Position numbers and translations under genes: made by a program. From assembly GCF_033096445.1 (NCBI RefSeq), contig NZ_AP028155.1, forward strand, positions 749,880-813,879: a stretch of 64,000 nt of DNA. The letters are read 5' to 3'. Position 1 is the first letter of the stretch, and each line of letters begins with the position of its first letter. This DNA comes from Butyricimonas faecihominis (lineage in GTDB: Bacteria > Bacteroidota > Bacteroidia > Bacteroidales > Marinifilaceae). The notes under the pieces are model-generated. The model did no database searches and was not told the DNA's origin. It was given only the letters and a program-made list of their open reading frames with translations. Of the stretch, positions 12,066-26,264 are shown in pieces.

Positions 12066-14377
12066 TGTTACAGGATATGAAAACAATATATAGAATAGCG
12101 AAATCAGAACTAAACTCTTTATTTTGTTCCCCGATAGCTTGGTTAGTGCTGGTCATCTTTACTTTTCAGATGAGCATGACTTTCACGGACAGGATTATAT
12201 GGGAATTGAAAGATTTTGTCATCAATAACCGGGAAAAGGATGGAATGACGGCTTATTTTCTGCTTACCGGCTTCGGTACGCCATTATTTCCCGGTGTACT
12301 TTCCTATTTGTATCTTTATTTTCCGTTGTTGACGATGGGATTGATGAGCCGGGAATTTAGTAGTGGATCCATTAAATTACTATATTCTTCGCCGATTACT
12401 AGCACGCAGATCGTGTTGGGGAAATATTTGTCGATGATGCTCTACGGGTTGATCATGCTAGCGATTGTTACGGTTTACGTGGTTTTTTACATGTGCGTGC
12501 TGAAGGACTTTGATTATCCCGTGGCGATTACCGGATTGATAGGTATTTACTTGATCATGTGCCTTTATTCAGCTGTGGGATTGTTTGTTTCCTGTTTAAC
12601 CTCGTATCAAGTCGTGGCGGCTATCGGTACGTTTGCGGCGTTAACCATTTTGCAGGTTATTGGCGGAGTTTTACAAGGAGTGGATTTCTGGAGAGATATA
12701 ACTTACTGGATTTGTAGTGGACCTCACGGCCCGATAGCCGGGTTAATTAATAGTGGTGACGTGTTATACTATTTGTTAATGCCTGCGCTGTTTATCGGGA
12801 TGTCCATCATGAAATTGCAGTTTGCTCGGCAGAGTAAACCGTGGTACACGAAAGTGGTGAAGTATTTGGCTTTGGTGGTCGTGATCGTGGGGATTGGTTA
12901 TGCAACTTCCCGACGAAACACAGTATGTATTACGGACCTTTCCCGTGACGAACAGTTGACACTAACTCCAAAGAGTCGTGATATACTGGAACGTTACAAA
13001 GGGCAGGAACTAACACTGACAACCTATGTCAACATCATGGACGAACATACGGCTGCCAGAATGTTCCCGAAGAGTCGGATTGGGGATATGTCCGTGTTCA
13101 GCAAATATTACCGTTTCAAACCGGACATGAAGTTCAAATACATTTATTATTACGATCACGTGTTGAACGGGCATTCCTGTTGTGCACCGGGAGAAGATCT
13201 AGAAGAGGCTGCCCGAAAACAAGCTAAGGTGAACGGGTTGGATTTTGATGATGTGCTTTCTCCCGAGGAAATACGGAAGATTCATGATTTAAGCGGTGAA
13301 AATAATCAAGTTGTCCGTACGCTTGAGGATAGCGAGGGAAACTGGACCTATTTGCGAATGTTCAATGACCTGAATCCTTACCCGAGTGAACAGGAAATAT
13401 CTGTTGCCCTGTTGCGCATGAAGGATGGAGCCGTGAAAATGGGTTCTCTCTACGGACATGGTGAACGGGAAATGAACAAAAGTGGGGATCGGGAGATCGG
13501 GTGGCTTTTCACGAATGGTTCCGGTCGCGGGTCGTTGATTAACCAAGGTTTTGATCCGGTAAGCGTGCCGCTCACGGAAGAGTGGGCGATCCCGGATGAC
13601 GTGCAAATCCTTTTAATTATAGACCCGAAAGAACCTTTTTCAGCGGTGGAACTGGAAAAAATCCGTGCTTACGTGGCAAGCGGGCGCCATTTGATCCTCG
13701 CAACGGATGTTAATCGTTCGGGGGTGACGGGGGAATTACTCGAGGATTTTGGGGTGAAGGCTTTACCCGGAATGTTGATACAACCTCGTAAAGATGAGGA
13801 CCCGACGAATATTAACGCTGTTTTCACGCCACAGGCAGGAGCGATTCACCCGACGTTCGCCCAGTGGGCAAGCCGCAACTACCCGTTGAGCATGACGGGG
13901 GCCGTTGGGTTGAGTTACACGATGGATAAGGGGTATAACGTTGTACCGTTAGTGGTTTCCCCGGTAGGTTCGTGGACTGAATTGGAAACGACGGATTTCG
14001 AGGGGGAAGTCCCGGTGTTTAACCCGAAAGCAGGGGAAATCAATCAACAGTTACCCGTGGTGCTTGCCTTGACCCGCCAATTGAACGGGAAGGAGCAGCG
14101 TATTTTGATTTTCGGAGATGCTGACTGGATGACGACCGGGGAGTTTAGCAAGAGTAGATATTATGGAGTGGCAAACGGGCCGTTGACAACGCTTATGTGT
14201 AGCTGGATGGCTGATTATCAATACCCGACTTATTTTCCTCGCCCGGCACAACCGGATAATCACTTGAAATTGTCCTACCAGTCACGGGGGACCTTGAAGG
14301 TGGCGTTTGTTGTTGTCTTCCCGGCCGTGATCTTGTTGTTATATCTTTTGGTGTGGTTTAAGAGAAGAGGTAAGTAG
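12065..14377 (+). CDS. GldF-GldG fusion: ABC-2 permease with GldG-type domain (module 1)
   Basis: A 770-residue protein. Residues ~1-265 are an ABC-2 permease with six membrane spans (first at ~18-35; PLLTMGLMSREFSSGSIKLL is the conserved intracellular coupling segment). Residues ~300-735 form a large periplasmic domain of the GldG type with the motif LYGHGEREMN and an aspartate-rich ILLIIDPKEPFS stretch. A last membrane helix (~745-765) precedes an RRGK tail. GldF and GldG are separate proteins in flavobacteria; here they are one chain. It works with the ATPase just upstream. Bacteroidales do not glide, so the substrate is unknown; the family call is firm, the function is not. Confidence 0.88.
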   Translation: MLQDMKTIYRIAKSELNSLFCSPIAWLVLVIFTFQMSMTFTDRIIWELKDFVINNREKDGMTAYFLLTGFGTPLFPGVLSYLYLYFPLLTMGLMSREFSSGSIKLLYSSPITSTQIVLGKYLSMMLYGLIMLAIVTVYVVFYMCVLKDFDYPVAITGLIGIYLIMCLYSAVGLFVSCLTSYQVVAAIGTFAALTILQVIGGVLQGVDFWRDITYWICSGPHGPIAGLINSGDVLYYLLMPALFIGMSIMKLQFARQSKPWYTKVVKYLALVVVIVGIGYATSRRNTVCITDLSRDEQLTLTPKSRDILERYKGQELTLTTYVNIMDEHTAARMFPKSRIGDMSVFSKYYRFKPDMKFKYIYYYDHVLNGHSCCAPGEDLEEAARKQAKVNGLDFDDVLSPEEIRKIHDLSGENNQVVRTLEDSEGNWTYLRMFNDLNPYPSEQEISVALLRMKDGAVKMGSLYGHGEREMNKSGDREIGWLFTNGSGRGSLINQGFDPVSVPLTEEWAIPDDVQILLIIDPKEPFSAVELEKIRAYVASGRHLILATDVNRSGVTGELLEDFGVKALPGMLIQPRKDEDPTNINAVFTPQAGAIHPTFAQWASRNYPLSMTGAVGLSYTMDKGYNVVPLVVSPVGSWTELETTDFEGEVPVFNPKAGEINQQLPVVLALTRQLNGKEQRILIFGDADWMTTGEFSKSRYYGVANGPLTTLMCSWMADYQYPTYFPRPAQPDNHLKLSYQSRGTLKVAFVVVFPAVILLLYLLVWFKRRGK

Positions 14378-14401
14378 TAATTATTAAATGATAAAAAAGA
14401 T

Positions 14402-15337
14402 ATGGAATCTATTGTAAAAGTAGAGCATTTGTCCCATCGTTACACGGTGGATTGGGCAATTCAAGATATAAATTTCGAGGTGAACCGGAAGGGAATCTTG
14501 GGATTATTGGGATCTAACGGGGCGGGAAAGTCCACGACGATGAACATTATCTGCGGCGTGTTGAATCAAACGGATGGCACGGTGTATATTAACGGTATTG
14601 ATACTCGCAAGAATCCCGTGGAGGCAAAAAAGAATATCGGTTTCCTACCGCAGAAACCACCCTTGTATTCGGACCACACGGTTGATGAATATCTTGAATT
14701 TTGTGCGGAATTGCGATTGATGGAACCCAAGAAAATCAAGCAAGCTGTAGAGATGGCCAAGGAACGGTGCGGTATCGCTCATTTCAGCAAGCGGTTGATC
14801 CGTAATCTTTCCGGCGGGTATCAACAACGTTTGGGAATAGCGCAAGCCATCATACATAGTCCTAAATTCGTGGTGCTGGACGAGCCGACGAACGGGTTAG
14901 ACCCGAATCAAATTCTTGAGATTCGCAAGTTGATCAAGGAGATTGCTGTTGATCATGCCGTTTTGCTTTCCACGCATATCCTGTCGGAAGTGCAAGCTAT
15001 GTGCGACGATATCAAGATGATAGAACACGGGCATCTGGTCTTTTCCGGGACGCTGGAAGAATTCGATAATTACGTGAAACCGGACACGTTTATCGTGAAA
15101 CTTGACAACCCGCCTGCCGACGAGGATATATTGGCTATCCCCGGGGTGACACGTCTCAAACACTTGGATCGAAACACCTTGAGAGTGCAGTTTGACAAGC
15201 GGGACGACATCACCGAGGTGGTGGCCGACACGTGTGTGCGTCATGGTTGGGGATTAAGCGAGATTACGTTGGAAAGAATCTCTTTGGAAGAGATTTTTGC
15301 CCAGTTGTCAGGAAAAAGATTGATCGATAAATTTTAA
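14402..15337 (+). CDS. ABC transporter ATPase, GldA-like (module 2)
   Basis: A 311-residue paralogue of the 11124 gene with the same motifs: Walker A GSNGAGKST, signature LSGGYQQRLG, Walker B FVVLDEPTNGLDP and switch LLSTHILSE. The first ~200 residues differ at scattered conservative positions only; the C-terminal accessory domain is more diverged, as expected if it contacts a different permease. It begins 24 bp after module 1 ends and is followed 8 bp later by its own permease gene. The four genes look like a direct duplication of a two-gene unit. Confidence 0.92.
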   Translation: MESIVKVEHLSHRYTVDWAIQDINFEVNRKGILGLLGSNGAGKSTTMNIICGVLNQTDGTVYINGIDTRKNPVEAKKNIGFLPQKPPLYSDHTVDEYLEFCAELRLMEPKKIKQAVEMAKERCGIAHFSKRLIRNLSGGYQQRLGIAQAIIHSPKFVVLDEPTNGLDPNQILEIRKLIKEIAVDHAVLLSTHILSEVQAMCDDIKMIEHGHLVFSGTLEEFDNYVKPDTFIVKLDNPPADEDILAIPGVTRLKHLDRNTLRVQFDKRDDITEVVADTCVRHGWGLSEITLERISLEEIFAQLSGKRLIDKF

Positions 15338-15345
15338 TAAACGTT

Positions 15346-17634
15346 ATGAGAGTAATATATAAAATAGCAAAATCGGAGTTAGGTACACTCTTTTATTCTC
15401 CGATAGCTTGGTTAATCCTAGTCATATTTGTATTTCAGGTTTTTGGTAGTTTTGCGAACTTACTGGAATATACCGTTAACGCGAAAACTCTTGGACAAAT
15501 GCAGGGGTACCAGAGTTATATGCTTTTCGTGATCGGTGGTTTCGCCCCTTATACAACCATCCAATCTACCCTTTATCTTTACATTCCCTTGTTAACAATG
15601 GGGCTTATGAGTCGGGAATATAGTAGTGGTTCTATTAAATTACTTTTTTCTTCCCCAATCAGTAGTTTGCAGATCATATTGGGAAAATACTTTTCCATGT
15701 TGATTTATGGGCTGATCATGATGGGGAGCGTGTTGGTACTGGTGGTCGTGGCGTTTTTCTCGATCAAAGATTTTGATCTTTCGCTCGTACTTTCCGGTTG
15801 GTTGGGCTTGTACTTGCTCATGGCGACATACGCGGCTATCGGGCTTTTCATGTCGACCTTGACTTCTTACCAGATCATTGCGGCTTTAGGAACGTTAACT
15901 TTCATTAGCTTTTTAAACTTTATCGGTAGCTTGTGGCAACATATTGAGGGGGTGCGTGAAGTGATGTATTGGTTCTCGCTTAAAGGACGTGCGGATGAAT
16001 CTATCCGGGGATTGATTTGTAGCGAGGATATACTTTATTTTATTCTCGTTTCGGGAATGTTCCTCGGGTTCTCGGTGCTGAAACTGCAATTTGCTCGTCG
16101 GAGTTGTTCCATGAGCGTGAAAGTGGGCAAATACGTGGGATTGGTAGCCTGTGTTGCCCTACTCGGGTATGTCTCCACGATTCCTCAATTGAAGTGTTTC
16201 TACGATGCTACGGCTAACAAGGATCGTACGATCACCCCGAACAGTCAGGAAATACTGAAACAGGTGGACGGAGGCTTGACGATTACTTCTTACGTTAATC
16301 TCCTTGACAAGTTTGGCTATCTTGGAATGCCATCCAATTGGTTTAATACCCGGAATATCTTCGAGACATTTACTCGTTTCAAGCCGGAGACTAAACTGAA
16401 AAGCTATTATTATTACGATAATAGTGCAGGGATGAATCTTTCCCGCGAGGAAATGGATAAGGCAATAGAGAGACTCGTGCTGACTTCCGATATTAATCCC
16501 AAAAGCATACTCACCCCGGAACAGATGAGGGAGAAGATCGACCTCTCTGCCGAGGAATACCGCTACGTGTTCTTGATCGAGCGGGAGAACGGGCAGAAAG
16601 CTTTCCTACGTATGTTCGATGATCAGGGAAAGTATCCTTCCGAGGCGGAGATTTCCGCCGTATTGAAGACTATGGTGTCCGAGAGTCCGCGTATTGCTTT
16701 CTTGAATGGACATGGCGAACGCAATATTTATGATGGCTCTGGGGTTAATTATACTTCGTTCACGACAGTTCTTGATTCAAGAGGTGCGTTGGTCAATCAA
16801 GGCTACACGCCCTATACGCTAATGCTGACGGAAGGGGGAGATATTCCATCGGATGTGGATGTACTCGTTATCGCTGATTTACGAAAAGCTTTGACGGATG
16901 ATGAATTGATTCAAATTAAACGATATATCGAACACGGGGGAAACTTGGTGGTGATCGGGGAACCGCGTCGGCAGGAGTACATGGCACCCGTGCTGGAACA
17001 ATTGGGCCTCGCTTTTGTTCCCGGTGTGCTGGTGCAGCCTCGTGAGGGATATGTTGCTGATTATCTTTGGGCAACATTCACACCGGAAGGGGCAAGTTTG
17101 GAACCTATTTTTGCCCGTATGGTGGAATTGGGTAATGTCCTCACGATGCCTTCTGCGGCAGCTATTTGCGAGACGGAAAATAAGGGATTCGAGGTGATTC
17201 CCGTGTTCACGACGGCAACTCACGGGTGTTGGAATGAGTTGGAAACGAAGAACTTTTCTCTCGAAGAACCCCGTCTAAACACGGCATTAGGGGAGGAGGA
17301 AAAAGCCTACGTGACCGGTTATGCCTTGCGTCGTGACGTGCGGGGAAAGGAACAACGTGTCTTTGTGCTTGGGGATGCCGATTGTATCAGTAATGGGGAA
17401 CTTGGAGCAAATCGAGAGTTCCGTCGCTCGAATTACGCACTTACGGATGGAATGTTTCGTTGGCTTGTTTACGATGAGTATCCTATTGATGTTAGTCGTC
17501 CGGCAGCCAAGGATAATGACACGTACCTAACCCCGGGAGGATTTGCGTGGATCAAGATATTCTTGCGTTGGATATGTCCGGTACTGATCGTGGTGTGTGG
17601 TTGCGTGATCTGGGTGATGAGGCGGATGAAGTAA
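15346..17634 (+). CDS. GldF-GldG fusion: ABC-2 permease with GldG-type domain (module 2)
   Basis: A 762-residue paralogue of the 12065 gene. The N-terminal ABC-2 part (~1-260) keeps PLLTMGLMSREYSSGSIKLL, and the periplasmic part (~290-725) keeps the GldG motif FLNGHGERNIYDGSG and VLVIADLRKALTD. One C-terminal membrane helix ends in RRMK. It is much more diverged from module 1 than the two ATPases are from each other, which suggests different cargo or a heteromeric complex. A strong terminator follows. Confidence 0.88.
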   Translation: MRVIYKIAKSELGTLFYSPIAWLILVIFVFQVFGSFANLLEYTVNAKTLGQMQGYQSYMLFVIGGFAPYTTIQSTLYLYIPLLTMGLMSREYSSGSIKLLFSSPISSLQIILGKYFSMLIYGLIMMGSVLVLVVVAFFSIKDFDLSLVLSGWLGLYLLMATYAAIGLFMSTLTSYQIIAALGTLTFISFLNFIGSLWQHIEGVREVMYWFSLKGRADESIRGLICSEDILYFILVSGMFLGFSVLKLQFARRSCSMSVKVGKYVGLVACVALLGYVSTIPQLKCFYDATANKDRTITPNSQEILKQVDGGLTITSYVNLLDKFGYLGMPSNWFNTRNIFETFTRFKPETKLKSYYYYDNSAGMNLSREEMDKAIERLVLTSDINPKSILTPEQMREKIDLSAEEYRYVFLIERENGQKAFLRMFDDQGKYPSEAEISAVLKTMVSESPRIAFLNGHGERNIYDGSGVNYTSFTTVLDSRGALVNQGYTPYTLMLTEGGDIPSDVDVLVIADLRKALTDDELIQIKRYIEHGGNLVVIGEPRRQEYMAPVLEQLGLAFVPGVLVQPREGYVADYLWATFTPEGASLEPIFARMVELGNVLTMPSAAAICETENKGFEVIPVFTTATHGCWNELETKNFSLEEPRLNTALGEEEKAYVTGYALRRDVRGKEQRVFVLGDADCISNGELGANREFRRSNYALTDGMFRWLVYDEYPIDVSRPAAKDNDTYLTPGGFAWIKIFLRWICPVLIVVCGCVIWVMRRMK

Positions 17635-17748: not shown

Positions 17749-17756
17749 TAAATTTG
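17749..17756 (+). promoter_or_regulatory. -7 element TAAATTTG of the SWIM/MoxR cassette
   Basis: An exact TAnnTTTG match located 28 bp before the ATG at 17785 and after the preceding terminator. It is the only clear promoter of the cassette. A -33 TTG at ideal spacing is not evident. Confidence 0.55.
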
Positions 17757-17784: not shown

Positions 17785-19116
17785 ATGGAATTATCAGAAG
17801 ATCAAATTATAAAATTGGCCCCGGATGCGGCATCCGTGAAAGCCGGGAAGGGATTGGCCTCGGCGGCGAAATGGGTGTTACGGGGAGCGAGTGACCGGGC
17901 GTTATGGGGGCATTGTCAGGGAAGTGGTAAGAATCCCTACCAGACGCAGGTCGATTTGCAGAATATCGCTTTCAAATGTTCGTGTCCCAGCCATAAGTTT
18001 CCTTGTAAACATAGCTTGGGGCTTTTGTTTTTATATGCTTCTCAGCCGGATTTATTCACGACAGGGGAAGAACCCGACTGGGTAAAGGAGTGGTTGGAGA
18101 AACGTGCGGGAAAAGCGGAGGAGAAGAAGGAAAAAGCGGATAAACCCGTGGATGTAGAGGCTCAGGCAAAGAGGCAGGAGGCTCGACACAAAAAGGTGCT
18201 GAACGGTGTGGACGATTTGCAAGGGTGGTTAAAGGACCTTGTGCGAAGTGGTCTGTTAAACGTTCCGGAGCGGGCGCAAGCCCTGTTTGCTGGGATTTCC
18301 AAGCGTATGGTCGATGCACAGGCTCCCGGTTTGGCGGGGATGATGCGGCAGTTACAGGAGATTCATTATTTCGGTGAGGACTGGAAGTACGAGCTGACGG
18401 CGGGAGCAAGCCGGGCGTACCTCGTGGCGGAAAGCTACAAGCACCTCGATCAGTTGTCCCCGGAATGGCAGGATGAAATCCGTACTCTCGTGGGATACCC
18501 GCAGGCCAAGGAGGAGGTGTTGGCTAACGGGGAACAGGTTTCCGACGATTGGTTGGTTGTTGCCTCGGAAAGTCTGCAACAAGATCGGTTGACGGTAGAG
18601 TACAATTGGTTGTACGGCCGACAAACCTGTCGTTATGCGCTCTTCTTGCAATTCTTAACACCGGGAGCTTTGACGGAAACCGCTTTATTACCGGGTAGTG
18701 TTGTTGCGGCTGATGTGGCGTTTTACAAGGGCGTGACCCCGACCCGGGTATTATTCCGTGAACAGAAAGGTACAAGAGAACCCTTTATCCCATCCGGAAA
18801 AGGATGTTGTGCGGGATTGGCAGAGGCCATGCAAGTCTATCGGGAGAGTATGACCCGTAATCCTTTCACGTATGAAGTACCCGTGTTGGTTAGCGAGGTA
18901 CGCCTTGTGATGCACGAAAAACAGGTGTGGATTAAGGATAGCAACGAGTATCTGATTCCGTTAACCTTGGGTGAGGCCGGCAAATTGAAAGGTTTTGCCG
19001 TGACCGGCGGACGGGAATTCACGGGGTTCTTCCTTGCCGGGGAGCGGTCATGGAGAGTGTTATCGTTATGGATAGAAGATAAATATTACACGTTAAGCAA
19101 TGAGTATAACGGATAA
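17785..19116 (+). CDS. SWIM zinc-finger protein (YehQ-like), first gene of the MoxR-VWA cassette
   Basis: A 443-residue protein. The SWIM motif is at residues ~55-75 (FKCSCPSHKFPCKHSLGLL, i.e. C-x-C...C-x-H), a zinc-binding element that binds DNA or protein. A charged linker (~90-135, KRAGKAEEKKEKADK) follows, then a long domain with no motif that I recognise. The first ATG is at 17785; an in-frame TTG nine bases earlier is less likely. The 3' end overlaps the DUF5691 gene by 17 bp. Gene order SWIM-DUF5691-AAA-DUF5682-VWA recalls E. coli yehQ/yehL/yehM/yehP; this is from memory of those families. Function is unknown. Confidence 0.88.
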   Translation: MELSEDQIIKLAPDAASVKAGKGLASAAKWVLRGASDRALWGHCQGSGKNPYQTQVDLQNIAFKCSCPSHKFPCKHSLGLLFLYASQPDLFTTGEEPDWVKEWLEKRAGKAEEKKEKADKPVDVEAQAKRQEARHKKVLNGVDDLQGWLKDLVRSGLLNVPERAQALFAGISKRMVDAQAPGLAGMMRQLQEIHYFGEDWKYELTAGASRAYLVAESYKHLDQLSPEWQDEIRTLVGYPQAKEEVLANGEQVSDDWLVVASESLQQDRLTVEYNWLYGRQTCRYALFLQFLTPGALTETALLPGSVVAADVAFYKGVTPTRVLFREQKGTREPFIPSGKGCCAGLAEAMQVYRESMTRNPFTYEVPVLVSEVRLVMHEKQVWIKDSNEYLIPLTLGEAGKLKGFAVTGGREFTGFFLAGERSWRVLSLWIEDKYYTLSNEYNG

Positions 19117-20572
19117 TGTCATAAATATAGCCTTGTTGGGAACGGCTAACCGGGAGATGACTTCCGGCGAGTTACCGGAAGATCTTGCCGGGACGTTGGA
19201 GCGGGTAAAAGAGAACGCTACAGACGGGGAGGAGGTCTTCTATAAGGGGGCTGCGGCTTTTTTCGCTTACTATCGTTCGGGTTTGGAACCTTTGAAGTTA
19301 AAAGATCCTGTTCCAGTTTCAGAGGCTGGGCCGGAAATGCGGCCTTATGTCGGTCAGAAAGCGGCCGCAATACTAAGTATTTTGCTGGGGGAAAAGTATG
19401 CTAATATGTTGCTTTTTTGGTACCGGAAAGCGGCAGAGCGGGAACAGTTGATTCCGCCGGAATATTTGCCCCAAGTGCTGACACGGGTATTTCAACCGGG
19501 GAGCCAGACGGCAAAACGGGAGCGGCAATTACTAATCTCTCTGGTGGGTAACCGGGGACGTTGGTTATTACCCATTATGGGATATGCCGCTTTGCAGGAA
19601 GAGGATGATGATACGTGGGAAACGGCCACTCATGCTGACCGGAAACTGATACTTTCACGGGTACGTCGTGAGAATCCTGCCCGGGGTATCGAGATGTTAC
19701 GTGCTGAATGGAAAAACGAGTCTGCCCAGCATCGTGCGGAGTTTCTGGCTTGTCTGGAGACTGGTTTGTCGGTAGCGGATGAGGATTTTTTAGAGGAAGT
19801 ACGGGGTGGTGACCGGAGTTCTACCGTGCGGGACGAGGCGTTGCGTCTGTTACGTATGATCCCGGAATCCCGAATCTTGCACTTGTTTGCCGAGACGTTA
19901 AAGAAGCATTTGCATTATCGTCGTTTGCTTGGTTGGTCTGTGGATCCGATTGCTTACACGGAAGAATTCAAGAAGTTAGGAATAAACGAAGTGAGTAGTA
20001 ATAAAGGCGAGAGCGACAGTGATTATATCCTGCGACAAATGGCACAATGTATGCCTTTGTCCTTTTGGTGCGAGTTTTTCGATTGTGATCCGGAGACGGC
20101 AGCTCAGCGGATGCGTAAATCACCCCCTTTTTCAAAACATATTTACTTGACGGACACGATACTGGGTTATAAAGACCGGGATTGGGCTTACCACGTGCTG
20201 AAAGATGAACGGGTACTTCAGTCATCCGACTTGATGCAATTGGTTCCCTTACTATCCGTGGAACAGCGGGAGCAATTGAATTTAAGCGGGAAAGCCGACC
20301 GGAATTTTTATATCAGTCAATGGTTCGGCGAGGACGACGGCGAGTGGGGAGAGAAATTCTCCCGGGGTGTGTTGAAGATGATTTACGCCATGGATTATTG
20401 TTATTACGATCGTCCGACTTGTGAGGCGCTGGCTTTACGCCTTCCTGCCTCGATGTATGATTACGTGTCCACTTTAGGGGCGTCACGGGAGAGTAGTGCT
20501 AGCCACTGGGAGTTCACGGTTCGTTTGCAACAACTGTTATTGATGAAAAAGGAAATAATACAAGCGTTTTAA
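19100..20572 (+). CDS. DUF5691 family protein of the MoxR-VWA cassette
   Basis: A 490-residue soluble protein starting MSITDNVINIALLGTANREM, the usual opening of DUF5691. The middle and C-terminal parts are rich in leucine and paired helices (for example TVRDEALRLLRMIPESRILHLF), which suggests HEAT-like repeats; this is inference. No catalytic motif is visible. It starts inside the end of the SWIM gene, so the two are translationally coupled. It is probably a scaffold or adaptor for the AAA+ and VWA partners encoded next. Confidence 0.83.
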   Translation: MSITDNVINIALLGTANREMTSGELPEDLAGTLERVKENATDGEEVFYKGAAAFFAYYRSGLEPLKLKDPVPVSEAGPEMRPYVGQKAAAILSILLGEKYANMLLFWYRKAAEREQLIPPEYLPQVLTRVFQPGSQTAKRERQLLISLVGNRGRWLLPIMGYAALQEEDDDTWETATHADRKLILSRVRRENPARGIEMLRAEWKNESAQHRAEFLACLETGLSVADEDFLEEVRGGDRSSTVRDEALRLLRMIPESRILHLFAETLKKHLHYRRLLGWSVDPIAYTEEFKKLGINEVSSNKGESDSDYILRQMAQCMPLSFWCEFFDCDPETAAQRMRKSPPFSKHIYLTDTILGYKDRDWAYHVLKDERVLQSSDLMQLVPLLSVEQREQLNLSGKADRNFYISQWFGEDDGEWGEKFSRGVLKMIYAMDYCYYDRPTCEALALRLPASMYDYVSTLGASRESSASHWEFTVRLQQLLLMKKEIIQAF

Positions 20573-20573
20573 T

Positions 20574-20640
20574 TTTAGATTTATGATTTTAGATTTTAGA
20601 TTTTAGATTTCAGCCGCACGGGGCTAGCGCTTTTTAAAGG
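20574..20640. repeat. AT-rich word repeat with GC-richer core (copy A)
   Basis: Four TTTTAGATTT-type words (20574-20610) lead into a core CAGCCGCACGGGGCTAGCGC (20611-20630) and TTTTT. The same arrangement is found at 47625-47690 and, on the other strand, at 24185-24277; a partial copy is at 36678-36730. It fills the spacer between the DUF5691 and MoxR genes. Confidence 0.8.
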
Positions 20641-20695
20641 ATTCTTTCATCTAAAATTGTTTGGGTATAAGAGACAAATATCAAAAAGTAAAAAT

Positions 20696-21775
20696 ATGGG
20701 TTTATTATTAAGACAACACGCGGAACAGCAATTCGAGGAAGAGTTGCACGAGTTAAAGAAGAACGAGACAAATAAAGTACCGGAAAACTGGCAACTATCC
20801 CCGCAATCGGTGGTTACCTACCTGATGGGCGGGAAACTGGCAAACGGTTTCGAGGTGACCCCGAAGTATATCGGGCATCGTCGTTTGATGGAGATCGCCG
20901 TGGCCACGCTGGTCACGGATCGGGCATTATTGTTGTACGGTCTGCCGGGTACAGCCAAGAGCTGGGTAAGCGAGCATCTGGCGGCGGCTATATCCGGAGA
21001 TTCTACCTTGATCGTGCAGGGAACGGCAGGAACGGGCGAGGAGGCCATCCGTTACGGGTGGAACTATGCCAAGTTATTAGCCGAAGGTCCTAGCGAGGGG
21101 GCTCTCGTGCAAACTCCCGTCATGCGTGCAATGAAGGATGGTAAACTGGCCCGTATAGAGGAGTTGACCCGTGTCGGTTCGGACGTTCAGGACACGCTGA
21201 TCACGATTCTTTCCGAGAAGACATTGCCTATTCCCGAGCTGGATCGTGAAATACAGGCTATCCGGGGCTTTAACGTGATTGCTACTGCCAATAACCGGGA
21301 CAAGGGTGTAAATGACTTGTCAAGCGCTTTAAAACGCCGTTTTAACACGGTAATCCTGCCTTTGCCCGACACGATCGACGAGGAAATCGACATCGTGCGT
21401 CGCCGGGTGGAGAGTTTCGAGGCCGTTATGGACCTTCCGGCAGAGAAACCTGCACTGGAAGAGATTCGCCGAGTGGTTACCATTTTCCGGGAGTTACGTC
21501 AGGGAGCAACCGAAGATGGTAAGACCAAGTTGAAAACTCCCAGTGGTACGCTGAGTACGGCCGAGGCCATCTCCGTCGTGAATAACGGTTTGGCCATGTC
21601 CGGGTATTTCGGTGATGGCCGGTTAAACGCCACGGACCTTGTATCGGGAATTATCGGGGCGGTTGTGAAGGACCCCGTGCAGGATCAGGTGATATGGCAG
21701 GAGTACCTTGAAACGGTCGTGAAGGGACGCGATGGCTGGAAGGACATCTACCGGGCATCTAGGGAAATGTTATAG
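20696..21775 (+). CDS. MoxR-family AAA+ ATPase (YehL-like)
   Basis: A 359-residue AAA+ ATPase. Walker A is GLPGTAKS (~83-90). The Walker B position reads LARIEELTRV, with E-E where most AAA+ proteins have D-E. Sensor 1 is FNVIATANNRD and the arginine finger region is ALKRRFNTV. An insert FNTVILPLPDTIDEEIDIV and a helical lid follow. MoxR ATPases pair with VWA proteins and are thought to act as chaperones or assembly factors; the VWA partner is encoded two genes downstream. The ATG at 20696 gives the family-like N-terminus; an upstream in-frame TTG is unlikely. Confidence 0.9.
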   Translation: MGLLLRQHAEQQFEEELHELKKNETNKVPENWQLSPQSVVTYLMGGKLANGFEVTPKYIGHRRLMEIAVATLVTDRALLLYGLPGTAKSWVSEHLAAAISGDSTLIVQGTAGTGEEAIRYGWNYAKLLAEGPSEGALVQTPVMRAMKDGKLARIEELTRVGSDVQDTLITILSEKTLPIPELDREIQAIRGFNVIATANNRDKGVNDLSSALKRRFNTVILPLPDTIDEEIDIVRRRVESFEAVMDLPAEKPALEEIRRVVTIFRELRQGATEDGKTKLKTPSGTLSTAEAISVVNNGLAMSGYFGDGRLNATDLVSGIIGAVVKDPVQDQVIWQEYLETVVKGRDGWKDIYRASREML

Positions 21776-21789
21776 TGACTAGTTTTAGA

Positions 21790-21885
21790 TTTAGAAATCG
21801 GATTGATTCGGTGATTTAGTGATTTCCGATTCGGTGATTGTAGAATCACGGAATCATGTAATCGACAATCACGTAGTCATTTAAT
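21790..21885. repeat. GATT-word spacer repeat between MoxR and DUF5682 genes
   Basis: The spacer is built from GATT/AATC words in both orientations, such as GATTCGGTGATTTAGTGATT and AATCACGGAATCATGTAATC, and GTGATTG (21833-21839) can pair with CAATCAC (21866-21872). A similar spacer lies at 38211-38300. Confidence 0.65.
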
Positions 21886-21892
21886 TTATACA

Positions 21893-24196
21893 ATGGTTGA
21901 TGGAATACATTTTTTAGGCATACGGCATCATGGTCCGGGGTCAGCCAAGAACGTACGAGCGTACTTGGAAGAACTGGAACCCGATGTTATTTTATTGGAA
22001 GGTCCCCCGGAGGCGGAGCCGCTTTTGCCGGGAGTACTTCATGAGCAGATGAAACCGCCCGTGGCCTTGCTGGCGTATCAGCCCGACGAGCCTCGAAGGG
22101 CCGTGTTTTATCCTTTTGCCGAGTTTTCACCCGAATGGCAGGCCATGTGCTATGCCATGAAAAAGGAGGTGTCATTACGCTTTTTTGACTTACCTTTGGT
22201 GCATCATTTAGCTCTTTGGAAAGAACGGGAGGAACAAGCCGTGGCCGGGAAAACCGGCGAAGAGGGGGAGTGCGATGAAGTACAGGGGGAGGCGTCCGCA
22301 ACCGAGACCCCGGAAGAAGTTCGGGTAGTTGACGTTCCGGAATTACTGCCCGTTGATCCTTTTGCTCATCTGGCGAAAGCGGCCGGGTACGATGATCCGG
22401 AATTGTGGTGGGAAGTGAACTTTGAGAATCGTCAGCGTAACGAGGAGGTGTTTGCCGCCGTGAAAGAGGCTGTTTCGGTGTTACGGGAGTATTTCCCCAA
22501 GACCGATCGGGAGACTTTGTTGCGGGAGGCGTGGATGCGTAAGATGATCCGGGCTGCCCAAAAAGAGGGTTTCAAACGTATAGCCGTGGTGTGCGGGGCT
22601 TGGCACGTGCCGGGTCTGGAGAAGATGCCCACGCAGAAAGAAGACAACGAGTTATTGAAGGGATTACCGAAAGTGAAGGTGGAGTGTACGTGGATTCCGT
22701 GGACTTACGATCGGTTGTCTTTCCGGAGCGGTTACGGGGCGGGAATCGTTTCCCCGGGGTGGTACGATCATTTATGGCATTATCCGGATGACGACGGAAC
22801 CCGTTGGATGAGCAAGGTGGCCGCCCTTTTCCGGACGAAAGGAATGGATATTTCCGTGGCTCACGTGATCGAGGCCGTGCGTTTGGCACAAGTTGCAGCC
22901 GCGTTACGCGGTTTGCCCCGTCCTTCTTTGGAGGAATACAATGATGCCGTGACCACGGTGATGGGATTCGGTGATCCGATTCTGTTACAAGTGATCCGGG
23001 AGGCCTTGGTGATTAGTGATCGCATGGGGAGCGTACCGGATGATGTGCCTAAAGTTCCTCTTCTCGTGGATGTAGAGAAGTTATTGAAACGCTTGCGCTT
23101 ACCCCTCACGACCGAGGTGAAGGAATTCCAGCTGGATTTGCGGAAACCGATGGATTTGGAGCGGAGTATCTTTTTCCACCGCCTGAACTTGCTCGGTATA
23201 AAGATGGCCCGTCCGTTACGGGTTGACGGGAAGGGGACTTTCAAGGAGGCTTGGTCCGTTTATTACGAACCGGAGCAGACCCTTGCCGTGATCGAGAAGG
23301 CCGTGTGGGGAAATACTTTGTCCGAGGCAGTTATCGCGTATAACACCCATTTGTCGAAAGACATCACGTCTATATCCGAGTTGGTGGACTTGCTGGAACG
23401 GGTGATTCCCGCGGATTTGCCCGCTCTCGTGGAAGAAATGACTTCCCGGCTGGATGCGCTTTCCGCCTCGACAACCGATGTGCTGGAGATGATGAAGACC
23501 ATCCCCGGTATGGTGAACGTGGTTCGTTACGGGAGTGTGCGGAACTTGGATTACGGGAAGGTTAACGATATGTTGAACGCCATGATGGCCCGTGTGCTTG
23601 CCGGGGGAGTGCTGGCTTGCACGAACGTGGACGAGGATGCGGCAGCAGAGGTCATGGAGCGATTGGTGGCTGTCGATTACGCTATGGCCACGGCGAACCA
23701 ACCGGGATTGATGGAGATGTGGACGGAACTGGTGAATAAGATCCGGGAAGCACGGGGTTCTCATCCCTTGTTGTCCGGTTATTGTACTCGTTTACTGCGG
23801 GATAAGAATATCCTTGGATACGAGGAAACGGCCCAAACGTTGAGTTATTACACGTCTCCCGGGAACACGGCATCCGACACGGCATTTTGGTTTGAAGGAT
23901 TCCTTAAATCATCGGGTACTATCTTGTTGCTGGACGATCAGTTATGGGATTTGGTGAATAGCTGGCTGGCCACTCTGAACGACGGGAGTTTCATGGAGTT
24001 ATTGCCCATACTCCGTAGAACCTTCAGCGAGTACAGCCTGCCGGAACGTCGTAAACTCGGTGAGAAAGCCAAGGGAACTTCTGCCGTGAAACGGGTAAAT
24101 GCGGAAAGCGAGGCGTTTAACGGTGAAGATGCCCGGAAGGTAATTCCGTTGATTGAGCGGTTATTAGGCATTTGGAACGAGAAAAGTAAAAGATAA
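21893..24196 (+). CDS. DUF5682 protein (YehM-like) with TIKI/TraB-like N-terminal motifs
   Basis: A 767-residue soluble protein. The N-terminus reads FLGIRHHGPGSAKNVRAYLE then PDVILLEGPPEAEPL, and further on LREAWMRKMIRAAQ and IAVVCGAWHVPGLEKM (~236-251). In order, these resemble the four motifs of the TIKI/TraB/PrgY superfamily (G-x-x-H..S, E, R..M, GxxH-x-x-G), which contains metal-dependent hydrolases. A long helical C-terminus (~290-767) is specific to this family. It sits between the MoxR and VWA genes, so it may be a substrate or effector of that pair. Family identity is good; the enzymatic prediction is inference. The C-terminal KSKR and stop are encoded by the AT-rich repeat that follows. 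Confidence 0.85.
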   Translation: MVDGIHFLGIRHHGPGSAKNVRAYLEELEPDVILLEGPPEAEPLLPGVLHEQMKPPVALLAYQPDEPRRAVFYPFAEFSPEWQAMCYAMKKEVSLRFFDLPLVHHLALWKEREEQAVAGKTGEEGECDEVQGEASATETPEEVRVVDVPELLPVDPFAHLAKAAGYDDPELWWEVNFENRQRNEEVFAAVKEAVSVLREYFPKTDRETLLREAWMRKMIRAAQKEGFKRIAVVCGAWHVPGLEKMPTQKEDNELLKGLPKVKVECTWIPWTYDRLSFRSGYGAGIVSPGWYDHLWHYPDDDGTRWMSKVAALFRTKGMDISVAHVIEAVRLAQVAAALRGLPRPSLEEYNDAVTTVMGFGDPILLQVIREALVISDRMGSVPDDVPKVPLLVDVEKLLKRLRLPLTTEVKEFQLDLRKPMDLERSIFFHRLNLLGIKMARPLRVDGKGTFKEAWSVYYEPEQTLAVIEKAVWGNTLSEAVIAYNTHLSKDITSISELVDLLERVIPADLPALVEEMTSRLDALSASTTDVLEMMKTIPGMVNVVRYGSVRNLDYGKVNDMLNAMMARVLAGGVLACTNVDEDAAAEVMERLVAVDYAMATANQPGLMEMWTELVNKIREARGSHPLLSGYCTRLLRDKNILGYEETAQTLSYYTSPGNTASDTAFWFEGFLKSSGTILLLDDQLWDLVNSWLATLNDGSFMELLPILRRTFSEYSLPERRKLGEKAKGTSAVKRVNAESEAFNGEDARKVIPLIERLLGIWNEKSKR

Positions 24197-24277
24197 AAAC
24201 TAAAAGATAAAAGTAGGAAATCAAAAAACGTTGGCCTGTGTAGGAGGAATTTAAAATCTAAAATTTAAAATCTAAAA
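24185..24277. repeat. AT-rich word repeat with core, reverse orientation (copy B)
   Basis: Read on the - strand this has TTTTAGATTTTAAATTTTAG words, then a core with CACAGGCCAACGTTTTTTGA, then TTTTATCTTTTAGTTTTTAT words. It overlaps the stop codon of the DUF5682 gene and touches the start codon of the VWA gene (CTAAAATGG). Confidence 0.8.
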
Positions 24278-25401
24278 TGGAAGAAGCTCTTTTAAAGCGA
24301 TGGCGATTAATACTGGGAGGAAACGAGGCGGATGGAACGGGAGTTTCTCTCTCTGCCGAGGAGAGTCGCGTGGATGCTGCCTTGAATGCTTTGTACGATA
24401 GTGACCGTAAAGGGGGATTGAGTGGTTCGACTCCCAAGGTAAGCCGTTGGTTGGGAGACATCCGGGAGTTTTTCCCGCAGACGGTTGTACAAGTGATTCA
24501 AAAGGACGCTATCAAGCGATTGAACTTGACTTCGTTACTGACCGAGAAAGAGATGCTTGAATCGGTGGTGCCGGACGTGCATCTGGTGGCAACGTTGATG
24601 TCCTTGAGCCGGGTGATACCGGAGAAGAACAAGGCTATTGCCCGGGAAGTGGTGCGTAAAGTGGTGGACGAGCTGATGAAAAAGCTATCGTCACCCATGC
24701 AACAGGCCGTTACCGGGGCTTTGAACCGTTCCAGCAGGCGGCGAAATCCCCGCTACAACGAGATTGATTGGAAGACGACGATCGAGAAAAACCTACGGAA
24801 CTATCAGCCGGAATACAAGACAATTATCCCGGAGGTTCGTATCGGTTTCGGCCGGAAACGCCGGGCGTTGAAGGACATCGTGCTGTGTCTCGACCAGAGT
24901 GGTTCGATGGGGGCGTCCGTGGTTTATTCGGGAATATTCGGCTCCGTGCTAGCCTCGATCCCGTCCGTGCAGACCCGTATGGTGGTGTTTGACACCTCGG
25001 TAGTTGACTTGACGGATGATTTGCAGGACCCGGTGGACTTGCTTTTCGGCGTGCAACTGGGTGGCGGTACGGATATTGACCGGGCCTTGGGGTATTGCCA
25101 GACGGTGATTACCCGTCCTGCGGACACGGTGCTGGTTCTCGTGACCGACTTGTGCGAGGGGGGTAACGAGCGGGAGATGCGCAAGAAGATGATTTCTCTC
25201 GTGCAGAGTGGGGTGCAGTTGATCGTGTTGTTGGCTCTGAATGACGACGGGGCGCCTTTCTACGACAAGGAGAACGCCCAATTCTTGGCAGAACTGGGTG
25301 TTTCGGCATTTGCCTGTACCCCGGACAAGTTCCCGGACTTGATGGCGGCGGCCTTGGCAAAACAAGATATCGGGATGTGGTTATCAAAGAATATGCAATG
25401 A
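24277..25401 (+). CDS. VWA-domain protein (YehP-like), MIDAS intact
   Basis: A 374-residue cytosolic protein. Residues ~1-190 are helical and family-specific. The von Willebrand A domain (~200-360) keeps the metal-ion site: DQSGSMGAS (DxSxS), a threonine in GGGTDIDRALG, and VLVTDLCEGG (final Asp). VWA proteins of this type work as partners of MoxR AAA+ ATPases, here encoded two genes upstream. The stop codon overlaps the ATG of the GNAT gene (ATGA), which ties that gene to the cassette. No signal peptide is present, so the complex is cytosolic. Confidence 0.9.
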   Translation: MEEALLKRWRLILGGNEADGTGVSLSAEESRVDAALNALYDSDRKGGLSGSTPKVSRWLGDIREFFPQTVVQVIQKDAIKRLNLTSLLTEKEMLESVVPDVHLVATLMSLSRVIPEKNKAIAREVVRKVVDELMKKLSSPMQQAVTGALNRSSRRRNPRYNEIDWKTTIEKNLRNYQPEYKTIIPEVRIGFGRKRRALKDIVLCLDQSGSMGASVVYSGIFGSVLASIPSVQTRMVVFDTSVVDLTDDLQDPVDLLFGVQLGGGTDIDRALGYCQTVITRPADTVLVLVTDLCEGGNEREMRKKMISLVQSGVQLIVLLALNDDGAPFYDKENAQFLAELGVSAFACTPDKFPDLMAAALAKQDIGMWLSKNMQ

Positions 25402-26264
25402 AAGAAAAGAGAAACCGAGCGGAAATCGTGGAACGATGTGTGGAATTATGGGAGGCCTCCGTGCGAGCCACCCATGATTTCCTCGTGGAAGGAGATATAG
25501 AGTTTTACAGGCCTTTTGTGCGTGAGAATTGCGAGAAGTTGCCCTTGCTACTTCATTATGAAGGGGATGAAATTGTAGCCTTTTTGGGGTATGACATGAC
25601 ATCTATCGAGATGCTTTTCGTGGACCCGGATTACCGGGGAAAGGGCATCGGTCGTGATCTTATCGAGTGGGCGATCGAGGATGTTCACGCGGAGACGGTG
25701 GCCGTGAACGAGCAAAACGGGCAGGCCGTGAGCTTTTATGCCCGGATGGGGTTTGAGGTGGAACGCCGCACGGAAACGGACGGTTGCGGGAAACCTTACC
25801 CGATCCTATACCTGCGTTTAAAGAATCCCCCGCAGCGAATGGTAAAGGTGACGGGGGATAAGAAAGCGTATCTTCATCTTCTACTGGATGCGGACCCGTG
25901 CGAGGCGATGGTTGACCGTTACTTGGAGGAGAGCGATATGTTCGTTTTGGAGAGGGACGGGAAGGTGATCGGGGAGGCTGTCGTTGACGAAAAGGGGGAA
26001 ATCAAGAATTTGGCCGTGTTGCCGGAGTATCAAGGGAAACTGTACGGAATGTACATTCTTTCTTTTCTGGCCGGTTACTATAAAGATCGTTTTTCTTGCT
26101 TGTGGGTAGGGACGAGCGAGGGTGGCGTGGGGTATTACGAGCGTTACGGTTTCGTGCAGGACCACGTGGTGAAGAATTTCTTCACGGATAATTACCCGGA
26201 ACCGATCATCGATAACGGGAGGCCTTGCGTGGATATGACTTTACTGCGTTTGGAGATTCGTTAA
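25398..26264 (+). CDS. Tandem GNAT acetyltransferase, coupled to the VWA gene
   Basis: A 288-residue protein with two GNAT folds. The first (~1-145) is YjaB-like, with WEASVRATHDFLVEGD, the acetyl-CoA loop in YRGKGIGRDLIEW and the C-terminal NEQNGQAVSFYARMGFEVE. The second (~150-288) keeps the fold (NLAVLPEYQGKLYGMYILSF, GVGYYERYGFV) but its acetyl-CoA loop reads QGKLYG rather than the usual R/Q-G-x-G-x-G/A, so it may be weak or inactive. The start codon overlaps the VWA stop. The acceptor is unknown; modification of a cassette component is possible. Confidence 0.85.
   Translation: MKEKRNRAEIVERCVELWEASVRATHDFLVEGDIEFYRPFVRENCEKLPLLLHYEGDEIVAFLGYDMTSIEMLFVDPDYRGKGIGRDLIEWAIEDVHAETVAVNEQNGQAVSFYARMGFEVERRTETDGCGKPYPILYLRLKNPPQRMVKVTGDKKAYLHLLLDADPCEAMVDRYLEESDMFVLERDGKVIGEAVVDEKGEIKNLAVLPEYQGKLYGMYILSFLAGYYKDRFSCLWVGTSEGGVGYYERYGFVQDHVVKNFFTDNYPEPIIDNGRPCVDMTLLRLEIR

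Follow-up and report, generated by a model that had tools for sequence, protein, structure and literature searches.

A conserved five-gene MoxR-VWA cassette in Butyricimonas faecihominis and its possible role in the control of a putative TIKI/TraB-like hydrolase

Gene content of the locus

The locus considered here lies in a stretch of 64,000 nucleotides from Butyricimonas faecihominis (NCBI RefSeq assembly GCF_033096445.1, contig NZ_AP028155.1, positions 749,880 to 813,879 of the forward strand), which is called the window and whose positions are used throughout. Between 17785 and 25401, five genes follow one another in the same direction and encode a SWIM zinc-finger protein, a DUF5691 protein, a MoxR-type AAA+ ATPase, a DUF5682 protein and a CoxE-type VWA protein; a gene for a GNAT acetyltransferase comes next. 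The five genes, referred to below as the cassette, form a real MoxR-VWA system of the YehL kind, which is conserved and uncharacterised, and we tentatively propose that its ATPase and VWA proteins would control DUF5682 as a putative hydrolase. The features of the locus are the following.

17785..19116, forward strand: SWIM zinc-finger protein, 443 amino acids (aa), first gene of the cassette, ATG start; Pfam SWIM 22.4 bits (cut-off 19.6)
19100..20572, forward strand: DUF5691 protein, 490 aa, nearly all helical, HEAT-like; Pfam E 7.7e-80
20573..20695, no strand: AT-rich spacer between the DUF5691 and MoxR genes, with TTTAGATTTTAGATTT repeats, read from the sequence
20696..21775, forward strand: MoxR AAA+ ATPase, 359 aa, YehL-like; AAA_5 E 1e-35
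21893..24196, forward strand: DUF5682 protein, 767 aa; Pfam E 2e-253
24277..25401, forward strand: CoxE-type VWA protein, 374 aa, with an intact metal ion-dependent adhesion site (MIDAS); VWA_CoxE E 8.2e-49
25398..26264, forward strand: tandem GNAT acetyltransferase, 288 aa; Pfam Acetyltransf_10/7/1, two stretches each

The MoxR gene was taken to start at the ATG at 20696, which gives 359 aa, as in many orthologues; a TTG at 20657 is an alternative in the list of open reading frames (ORFs). The first 17 base pairs (bp) of the DUF5691 gene (19100..19116) overlap the end of the SWIM gene, the VWA and GNAT genes share a 4-bp ATGA overlap, and spacers of 123 bp (DUF5691/MoxR), 117 bp (MoxR/DUF5682) and 80 bp (DUF5682/VWA) separate the remaining genes. 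The single-contig genome of 4.85 Mb holds one copy of the DUF5682 gene. The original prediction had described co-directional genes with both overlaps and a single promoter, and the ORFs and the Pfam matches uphold this layout in everything except the promoter. TAnnTTTG is a promoter box of the Bacteroidota type, and the one found at 17749, upstream of the SWIM gene, is at chance level, with 46 such boxes in the window and 45.6 expected. Because the box occurs at chance frequency and the spacers of 80 to 123 bp could hold others, transcription from a single promoter does not follow.

Repeats of the TTTAGATTTTAGATTT type have six near-matches in the window, where 0.02 would be expected, and four of the six lie in the cassette spacers, distributed over two of them. 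For the genome-wide count of this repeat, the control was uninformative, the pattern being identical backwards. The three spacers (20573-20695, 21776-21892 and 24197-24276) are long, their equivalents in Butyricimonas synergistica (L016) measuring 30, 16 and 30 bp, and they have possibly been expanded in the B. faecihominis lineage.

The two accessory proteins can be described briefly. The CxCx6CxH motif of the SWIM protein is intact in 63 of 64 aligned sequences, the remaining one having a gap at this place. The structural model of DUF5691 (predicted local distance difference test, pLDDT, of 92) is helical nearly throughout; its sequence matches to alphaRep and HEAT proteins are weak (best E 0.0054), and a Foldseek search returned engineered or designed armadillo proteins (best E 1.1e-3), with nothing at 0.001.

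Conservation of the five-gene unit

At least 593 pattern matches were obtained from 84,980 species genomes, and 585 of them encode DUF5682 relatives. The best 80 loci were kept; as the ranking went by their similarity to the window, the set is biased, and 55 of these 80 had enough flanking sequence (at least 4.5 kb before and at least 1.5 kb after the gene) to be judged. All five families are present in 49 of the 55 well-covered loci and their order is kept in 48; the order differs in L071, and some of the families are missing from L033, L045, L056, L079, L084 and L085. According to the record titles, the loci with all five families span nine phyla, Bacteroidota (L016), Cyanobacteriota (L044), Chloroflexota (L059), Pseudomonadota (L050), Planctomycetota (L062), Armatimonadota (L080), Verrucomicrobiota (L086), Acidobacteriota (L090) and Deinococcota (L010, on a plasmid). 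The original prediction had proposed to look for shared neighbourhoods of the five families, and these are indeed neighbours across the nine phyla, so that the cassette is a real conserved unit, widely shared among bacteria.

Its distribution closer to the window is patchy. In an even sample of the phylum, in which partners were called by a hidden Markov model search at E 1e-4, DUF5682 is found in 7 of 296 genomes, and the cassette is complete in three of the seven (G000, G126 and G023); SWIM is missing from G166 and both SWIM and VWA from G162, VWA is the only partner in G178, and G037 has no partner. Within the family, 6 of 56 genomes carry DUF5682, the nearest named relative being that of Butyricimonas synergistica (81%). 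The assemblies behind L016 and G300 are apparently one and were counted once.

Across the loci, the genes are tightly packed, with median intergenic gaps of -4 to 12.5 bp (n=58), which are lower bounds, as starts were placed at the first possible codon. Some of the genes are fused, SWIM to DUF5691 in L008, L062 and L068 and DUF5682 to VWA in L015, and these fusions suggest a physical association of the encoded proteins. The mirror-tree correlations among the families (r 0.66-0.84, n=63; L049, a near-duplicate, was excluded from the distance comparison) fit co-inheritance and were not counted as evidence, as a common species history would by itself give high values and no unrelated pair was compared.

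A scan of viral contigs confirmed no relative. An unverified record named "Bacteriophage sp." from human faeces (L014, MT835988.1) carries MoxR, DUF5682 and VWA, and it is more likely bacterial DNA than phage.

The MoxR-VWA pair

The AAA+ and VWA proteins had been predicted to form a MoxR-VWA pair, and their matches to AAA_5 and VWA_CoxE, with Walker A and MIDAS both intact, bear this out. The G, G and K of Walker A are present in 76 of 79 aligned MoxR sequences and the RRF segment in 77 of 79, the rest being gaps. In the VWA proteins, the DxSxS of the MIDAS is found in 77 of 78 sequences (with one gap), its T in 75 of 78 and its D in 78 of 78; 65 of the 78 VWA ORFs measure 360-410 aa.

The canonical consensus of Walker B is hhhhDE. 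The MoxR proteins of the cassette deviate from it, with R-h-E-E at this place in 76 of 79 (gaps in the rest) and also in YehL of E. coli, an alignment that points to a shared variant rather than a broken gene and possibly to a hallmark of the YehL subfamily. YehL is listed as one of seven named MoxR subfamilies in PMC3893208. Models of other MoxR subfamilies fall far below their cut-offs (MadB 38.6 vs 475 bits, GvpN 32.4 vs 266.8 bits), and the PDB entries closest to the ATPase are those of Midasin (E 9e-14) and, after it, NorQ (E 6e-5); a sequence search of the PDB with the VWA protein gave no matches.

Better-known pairs of this kind remodel other proteins. In NorQD, iron is inserted into cNOR via VWA-mediated remodelling, in which the VWA protein reaches with a finger into the pore of the ATPase (PMC13036017); RuBisCO and fumarate reductase are clients of related pairs (PMC9976466). 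As in NorQD, CoxDE and CbbQO, the cassette pairs a MoxR AAA+ protein with a MIDAS-bearing VWA protein, and the same ATP-driven remodelling would be expected of it. Unlike these systems, it has no recurrent adjacent metalloenzyme, it includes additional SWIM, HEAT-like and DUF5682 genes and it carries the R-h-E-E variant.

DUF5682 as a putative TIKI/TraB-like enzyme

The structural model of DUF5682 (pLDDT 89.4) comprises an alpha/beta domain at about residues 1-275, followed mostly by helices. Among 95 DUF5682 sequences, which include that of E. coli and those of loci with no detected partners, nine residues (R11, H12, E36, D99, R198, R211, E212, M215 and H238) are invariant and H13 is kept in 93. 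Relative to the predicted strands, H12 comes after strand 5-10 (GIRH), E36 after 32-35 and H238 after 230-235 (GAWH). For TIKI enzymes, PMC6254334 describes an active site of two His and two Glu plus a basic residue, to which the invariant H12, E36, H238 and R211 bear a resemblance. The N-domain of DUF5682 is like the TIKI, TraB and EreA proteins in having GxxH...E...R...GxxH in this order and in its weak, repeated profile and fold matches to them; unlike these hydrolases, DUF5682 is much larger, has a helical remainder and belongs to a chaperone operon. Membership of the N-domain in the TIKI/TraB hydrolase superfamily, with H12, E36 and H238 as candidate residues, is in our view probable, the evidence being suggestive and short of proof.

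Three lines of comparison are the reason why the direct link to TraB is kept as suggestive, namely DUF5694, the Pfam counts and a match among viral models. Apart from DUF5682 itself, the Pfam family that most often matches the N-domains is TraB_PrgY_gumN (6 of 77, best E 0.0069), and the matches that were seen in detail score 10-16 bits vs a cut-off of 26.8, the two best being at co-linear places. DUF5694 matches 2 of the 77 N-domains, and its best E of 4.4e-4 is the best non-self value listed. In profile comparisons, DUF5682 matches DUF5694 with P 9.4e-4 over 210 columns, and DUF5694 matches TraB with P 4.5e-5 over 73 columns; our reading of its motifs and of this TraB match would place DUF5694 in the TIKI/TraB superfamily. 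L128, one of the 30 loci of the TraB set, gave no ORF, and the profile of DUF5694 was built without locus L179. As controls, the DUF5682 profile gave P 0.31 with MoxR, 0.21 with SWIM, 0.12 with DUF5691 and 0.63 with DUF4132; the VWA control of hhalign was dropped, as its alignment contained a DUF5682-VWA fusion that produced a spoiled strong match. In a Foldseek search of viral models, a TraB family protein of a Marseillevirus ranks first (probability 1.00, E 0.014).

A number of results weigh against a TIKI-like enzyme that is remodelled by the pair. Only one Glu has been assigned in DUF5682, whereas TIKI enzymes have two. On single N-domains, unrelated families score alike (CBM46 with E 0.0049; CC4_CEP85 with E 0.0061, in 3 of 77), and the program's own probability is 22% for the DUF5682/DUF5694 comparison and 69% for DUF5694/TraB. 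The direct comparison of DUF5682 with a profile of 29 Bacteroidia TraB proteins was not significant, with P 0.29 for the whole protein, 0.07 for the N-domain and 0.016 and 0.9 for motif pieces, and another direct comparison gave P 0.12, no better than the DUF5691 control. The viral TraB match has a root-mean-square deviation of 11.8, and no viral hit reaches E<=0.001. Likewise, none of the best 50 of 566 Foldseek matches in the PDB has E<=0.001; karyopherins head them, presumably due to the helical part of the protein, and a sequence search of the PDB with DUF5682 gave weak HAD-type matches only (best E 0.25). Moreover, DUF5682 stands without any detected partner in L033, L056, L079 and L085 (of the 55 loci) and in G037, and can therefore do without the MoxR-VWA pair. 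Finally, the R-h-E-E at the Walker B place means that ATP hydrolysis by the MoxR protein is assumed.

The yeh genes of E. coli as a variant of the cassette

The original prediction had noted that yehQ, yehL, yehM and yehP of E. coli carry domains similar to those of the cassette, and for three of them the similarity extends to homology. The yehI-yehL-yehM-yehP-yehQ cluster contains homologues of MoxR, DUF5682 and VWA in the same order, plus a SWIM protein, with identities to the window proteins of 38% for YehL, 35% for YehP and 27% for YehM (over 62% of the protein), and YehL carries the same R-x-E-E segment as the window MoxR. The SWIM gene, yehQ, comes last in E. coli, and its product can be aligned to the window protein only in the zinc finger. 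Likewise, the fifth component is a DUF4132 protein (YehI) in E. coli and DUF5691 in the window. A match is present in 5311 of 5426 E. coli genomes, and at least 80% of the four-gene stretch in 5155, so that the yeh cassette is core in this species. No report on the function of the yehI-yehQ cluster was found among the literature matches listed; these include one genome announcement that names at least two of yehL, yehP and yehQ and a Shigella genome paper that names yehL and yehM, and most of the others are on unrelated subjects.

A copy of this normally chromosomal yehI/L-Q cluster lies on a conjugative, IncF-typed E. coli plasmid (L012, 2176-13394); 2 of 5332 places of the yeh genes are plasmid-borne.

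DUF4132 is also the most frequent extra neighbour of the cassette. Downstream genes were scanned at 55 of 61 loci (L019, L054 and L072 lie at contig ends, and L038, L046 and L049 were omitted for length), and six of the 55 encode DUF4132; going by size, these are the six genes of 974-987 aa in Niastella, Chitinophaga, Terrimonas and similar loci (L022 was checked singly). At L029, a DUF4132 gene lies inside the cassette. A profile of DUF5691 matches that of seven Chitinophaga-like DUF4132 proteins (P 6.6e-5, probability 64%) over the helical parts, and reaches no better than P 0.046 with the E. coli/Iodobacter DUF4132 pair. As the match covers the helical parts, the fifth, helical component may be exchangeable between DUF5691 and DUF4132.

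The GNAT neighbour and the loss of the cassette within the genus

The GNAT had been predicted to add modification to the system; its functional membership is not supported, and its link to the cassette is confined to close relatives. A GNAT gene is the downstream gene in 2 of the 55 scanned loci, L016 (Butyricimonas) and L020 (Odoribacter), whose hosts we take to belong to the same family; the GNAT of L020 has a single domain and aligns poorly with the tandem GNAT of the window. At L134, a GNAT gene lies near the cassette on the opposite strand and is not adjacent to it, and a suspected GNAT at L021 (Tannerella) turned out to be a sigma factor.

DUF5682 is present in four of the six genomes of the genus, and in all four the tandem GNAT gene overlaps the VWA gene. 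From the other two (G297 and G296), the cassette is missing at the corresponding position, where synteny is otherwise kept. In G297 (L147, 9780-9965), the first ~35 bases of the SWIM gene and a fragment of the VWA gene are left, followed by an intact GNAT gene, and in G296 (L150, 13710-13971) everything from SWIM through GNAT is gone while the flanks are conserved. The GNAT of G297 is 88% identical to that of the window, with a non-synonymous divergence (dN) of 0.064 and a synonymous divergence (dS) of 1.386, like the flanking DUF1963 and ABC genes, and is under purifying selection. This comparison indicates that the cassette is accessory in the genus, that it was lost by deletion in G297 and that the GNAT, which is still intact there, serves a purpose independent of it. 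A functional membership of the GNAT was consequently rejected as the likeliest reading, as the gene is intact without the cassette in G297, is rare elsewhere and is linked to it in close relatives only, although all four cassette-bearing genomes of the genus have the coupled GNAT and G296 has lost both. The GNAT is a separate gene that is probably co-transcribed with the cassette in this genus.

Two further observations concern the surroundings. Between its GNAT and DUF1963 genes, L016 carries a gene for an 889-aa helicase of superfamily 2 (ResIII/DEAD; 14339-17008); L133 has a 900-aa gene at the same spot, and the window and L132 have none, which makes it a variable spot adjoining the cassette. 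Upstream of the cassette in the window, a fusion of an ABC permease with ABC_transp_aux (15346-17634) belongs to a large paralogous family, with 18 matches in G296 and 14 in G297.

Proposed mechanism and alternatives

In the mechanism that we propose, the proteins of the cassette would work in the cytosol as an ATP-driven machine that controls an enzyme. The MoxR protein would pair with the CoxE-type VWA protein and spend ATP on remodelling DUF5682, whose N-domain would be a TIKI/TraB-like hydrolase with H12, E36 and H238, together with R211, as candidate residues. Such remodelling could switch DUF5682 on, for instance by opening it, by loading it with metal or by releasing it from a scaffold, and the SWIM and HEAT-like DUF5691 proteins would serve in targeting or scaffolding and choose when or where this happens. 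DUF5682 is the likeliest client because it is the constant enzyme-like partner beside the MoxR-VWA pair, which also speaks for the earlier claim that the AAA+ and VWA proteins handle it. We infer the formation of a complex, the role of DUF5682 as client, its catalysis and activation, the cytosolic location and any substrate. As a whole, the proposal that a MoxR-VWA chaperone remodels or activates a DUF5682 hydrolase, with SWIM and DUF5691 in targeting or scaffolding, stands in our judgement just short of an even chance.

Alternatively, the pair might insert a metal or a cofactor into, or reactivate, a client encoded elsewhere, with DUF5682 as cofactor carrier or adaptor. This would suit the CoxE type of the VWA protein (E 8.2e-49) and the position of NorQ as the nearest solved MoxR protein after Midasin, and the recurrent DUF4132 neighbour (6 of 55) is compatible with it. 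The TIKI/TraB superfamily also includes ChaN, a haem-binding protein. Known insertion systems mostly adjoin their client, but none of the metalloenzyme families is seen twice in the 55 downstream genes, and in a set of 110 proteins from the flanks of 28 Bacteroidota loci the recurring families are the peptidases M28 and M20 only, with two each. In Deinococcus radiodurans, induction of the DUF4132 gene DRA0166 came without differential expression of moeA and moeB (PMC8533742), and the invariant H/E/H residues of DUF5682 suggest catalysis. We consider this alternative unlikely.

A role in defence is not supported. The MoxR and VWA proteins would then form a threshold switch and DUF5682 a toxic effector released on infection, in an anti-phage or conflict system akin to the ternary conflict systems of Kaur et al. 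2020. A MoxR-vWA core with a third component is indeed common to both (PMC7159879), but the third component of the cassette is the conserved DUF5682 and its VWA protein mostly has no extra domains, most VWA ORFs (the 65 of 78 with 360-410 aa) leaving no room for an effector tail. In the main text of PMC7159879, there is no mention of SWIM, WGR, MolR, yeh, TraB or EreA. The bpMoxR model, the sole ternary-system family listed, scored 26.9 bits vs a cut-off of 27, and VMAP and iSTAND were not searched by model.

The patchy occurrence (7 of 296 phylum and 6 of 56 family genomes), the absence of the whole unit from two of the six genus genomes, some plasmid copies that adjoin restriction or toxin-antitoxin genes (L013 and L011) and the GmrSD restriction domains in 2 of the 55 downstream genes are all what a defence system might show. 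By contrast, PADLOC gave weak matches only on the seven proteins (best MoxR/IetA, E 0.0012), and the flanks are not enriched in defence genes, with eight PADLOC models, each on 1 of 110 flank proteins, vs 31 models over 110 random-region proteins, a rough test in which models were counted, several of them redundant, and the control came partly from other genomes. The proteins for this comparison were sampled at random (110 of 232 near ORFs and 110 of 176 control ORFs, after removal of ORFs of at least 1300 aa). Together with the core status of the cassette in E. coli (at least 80% of it in 5155 of 5426 genomes), these results make a conflict system quite improbable.

A stress or DNA-damage accessory, in which SWIM (and DUF4132 elsewhere) would bring the hydrolase to nucleic acid-bound proteins that are processed under genotoxic stress, is a doubtful alternative: no other extra neighbour is as frequent as DUF4132 (6 of 55, and L029), and D. 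radiodurans DRA0166 (DUF4132) and DR2173 (WGR) are up after mitomycin C in the wild type and not in the irrE mutant (PMC8533742), but the text of that paper names no SWIM, MoxR or VWA, so that the link to the regulon concerns DUF4132 alone, and in the window no DUF4132 gene adjoins the cassette.

Significance

The names DUF5682, DUF5691 and DUF5694 are absent from the literature searched (5.39 million papers), the coverage of which leaves out most subscription papers, and the original prediction of an undescribed system agrees with this, as no paper in that literature contains the words DUF5682 or DUF5691. That the cassette is an undescribed system of several phyla in which a MoxR-VWA pair gates the TIKI-like hydrolase DUF5682 through a SWIM/HEAT module, with yehLMPQ as a variant, is a possibility to which we give somewhat less than an even chance. 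If it is true, this would be, to our knowledge, the first MoxR-VWA system with a TIKI-family enzyme as client, and MoxR-VWA chaperones would extend beyond cofactor insertion and complex assembly to the control of a hydrolase. It would also provide a testable mechanism for core genes of E. coli of unassigned function that have relatives in nine phyla, as H12, E36, H238 and the operon partners could be tested in E. coli through yehL, yehM and yehP.

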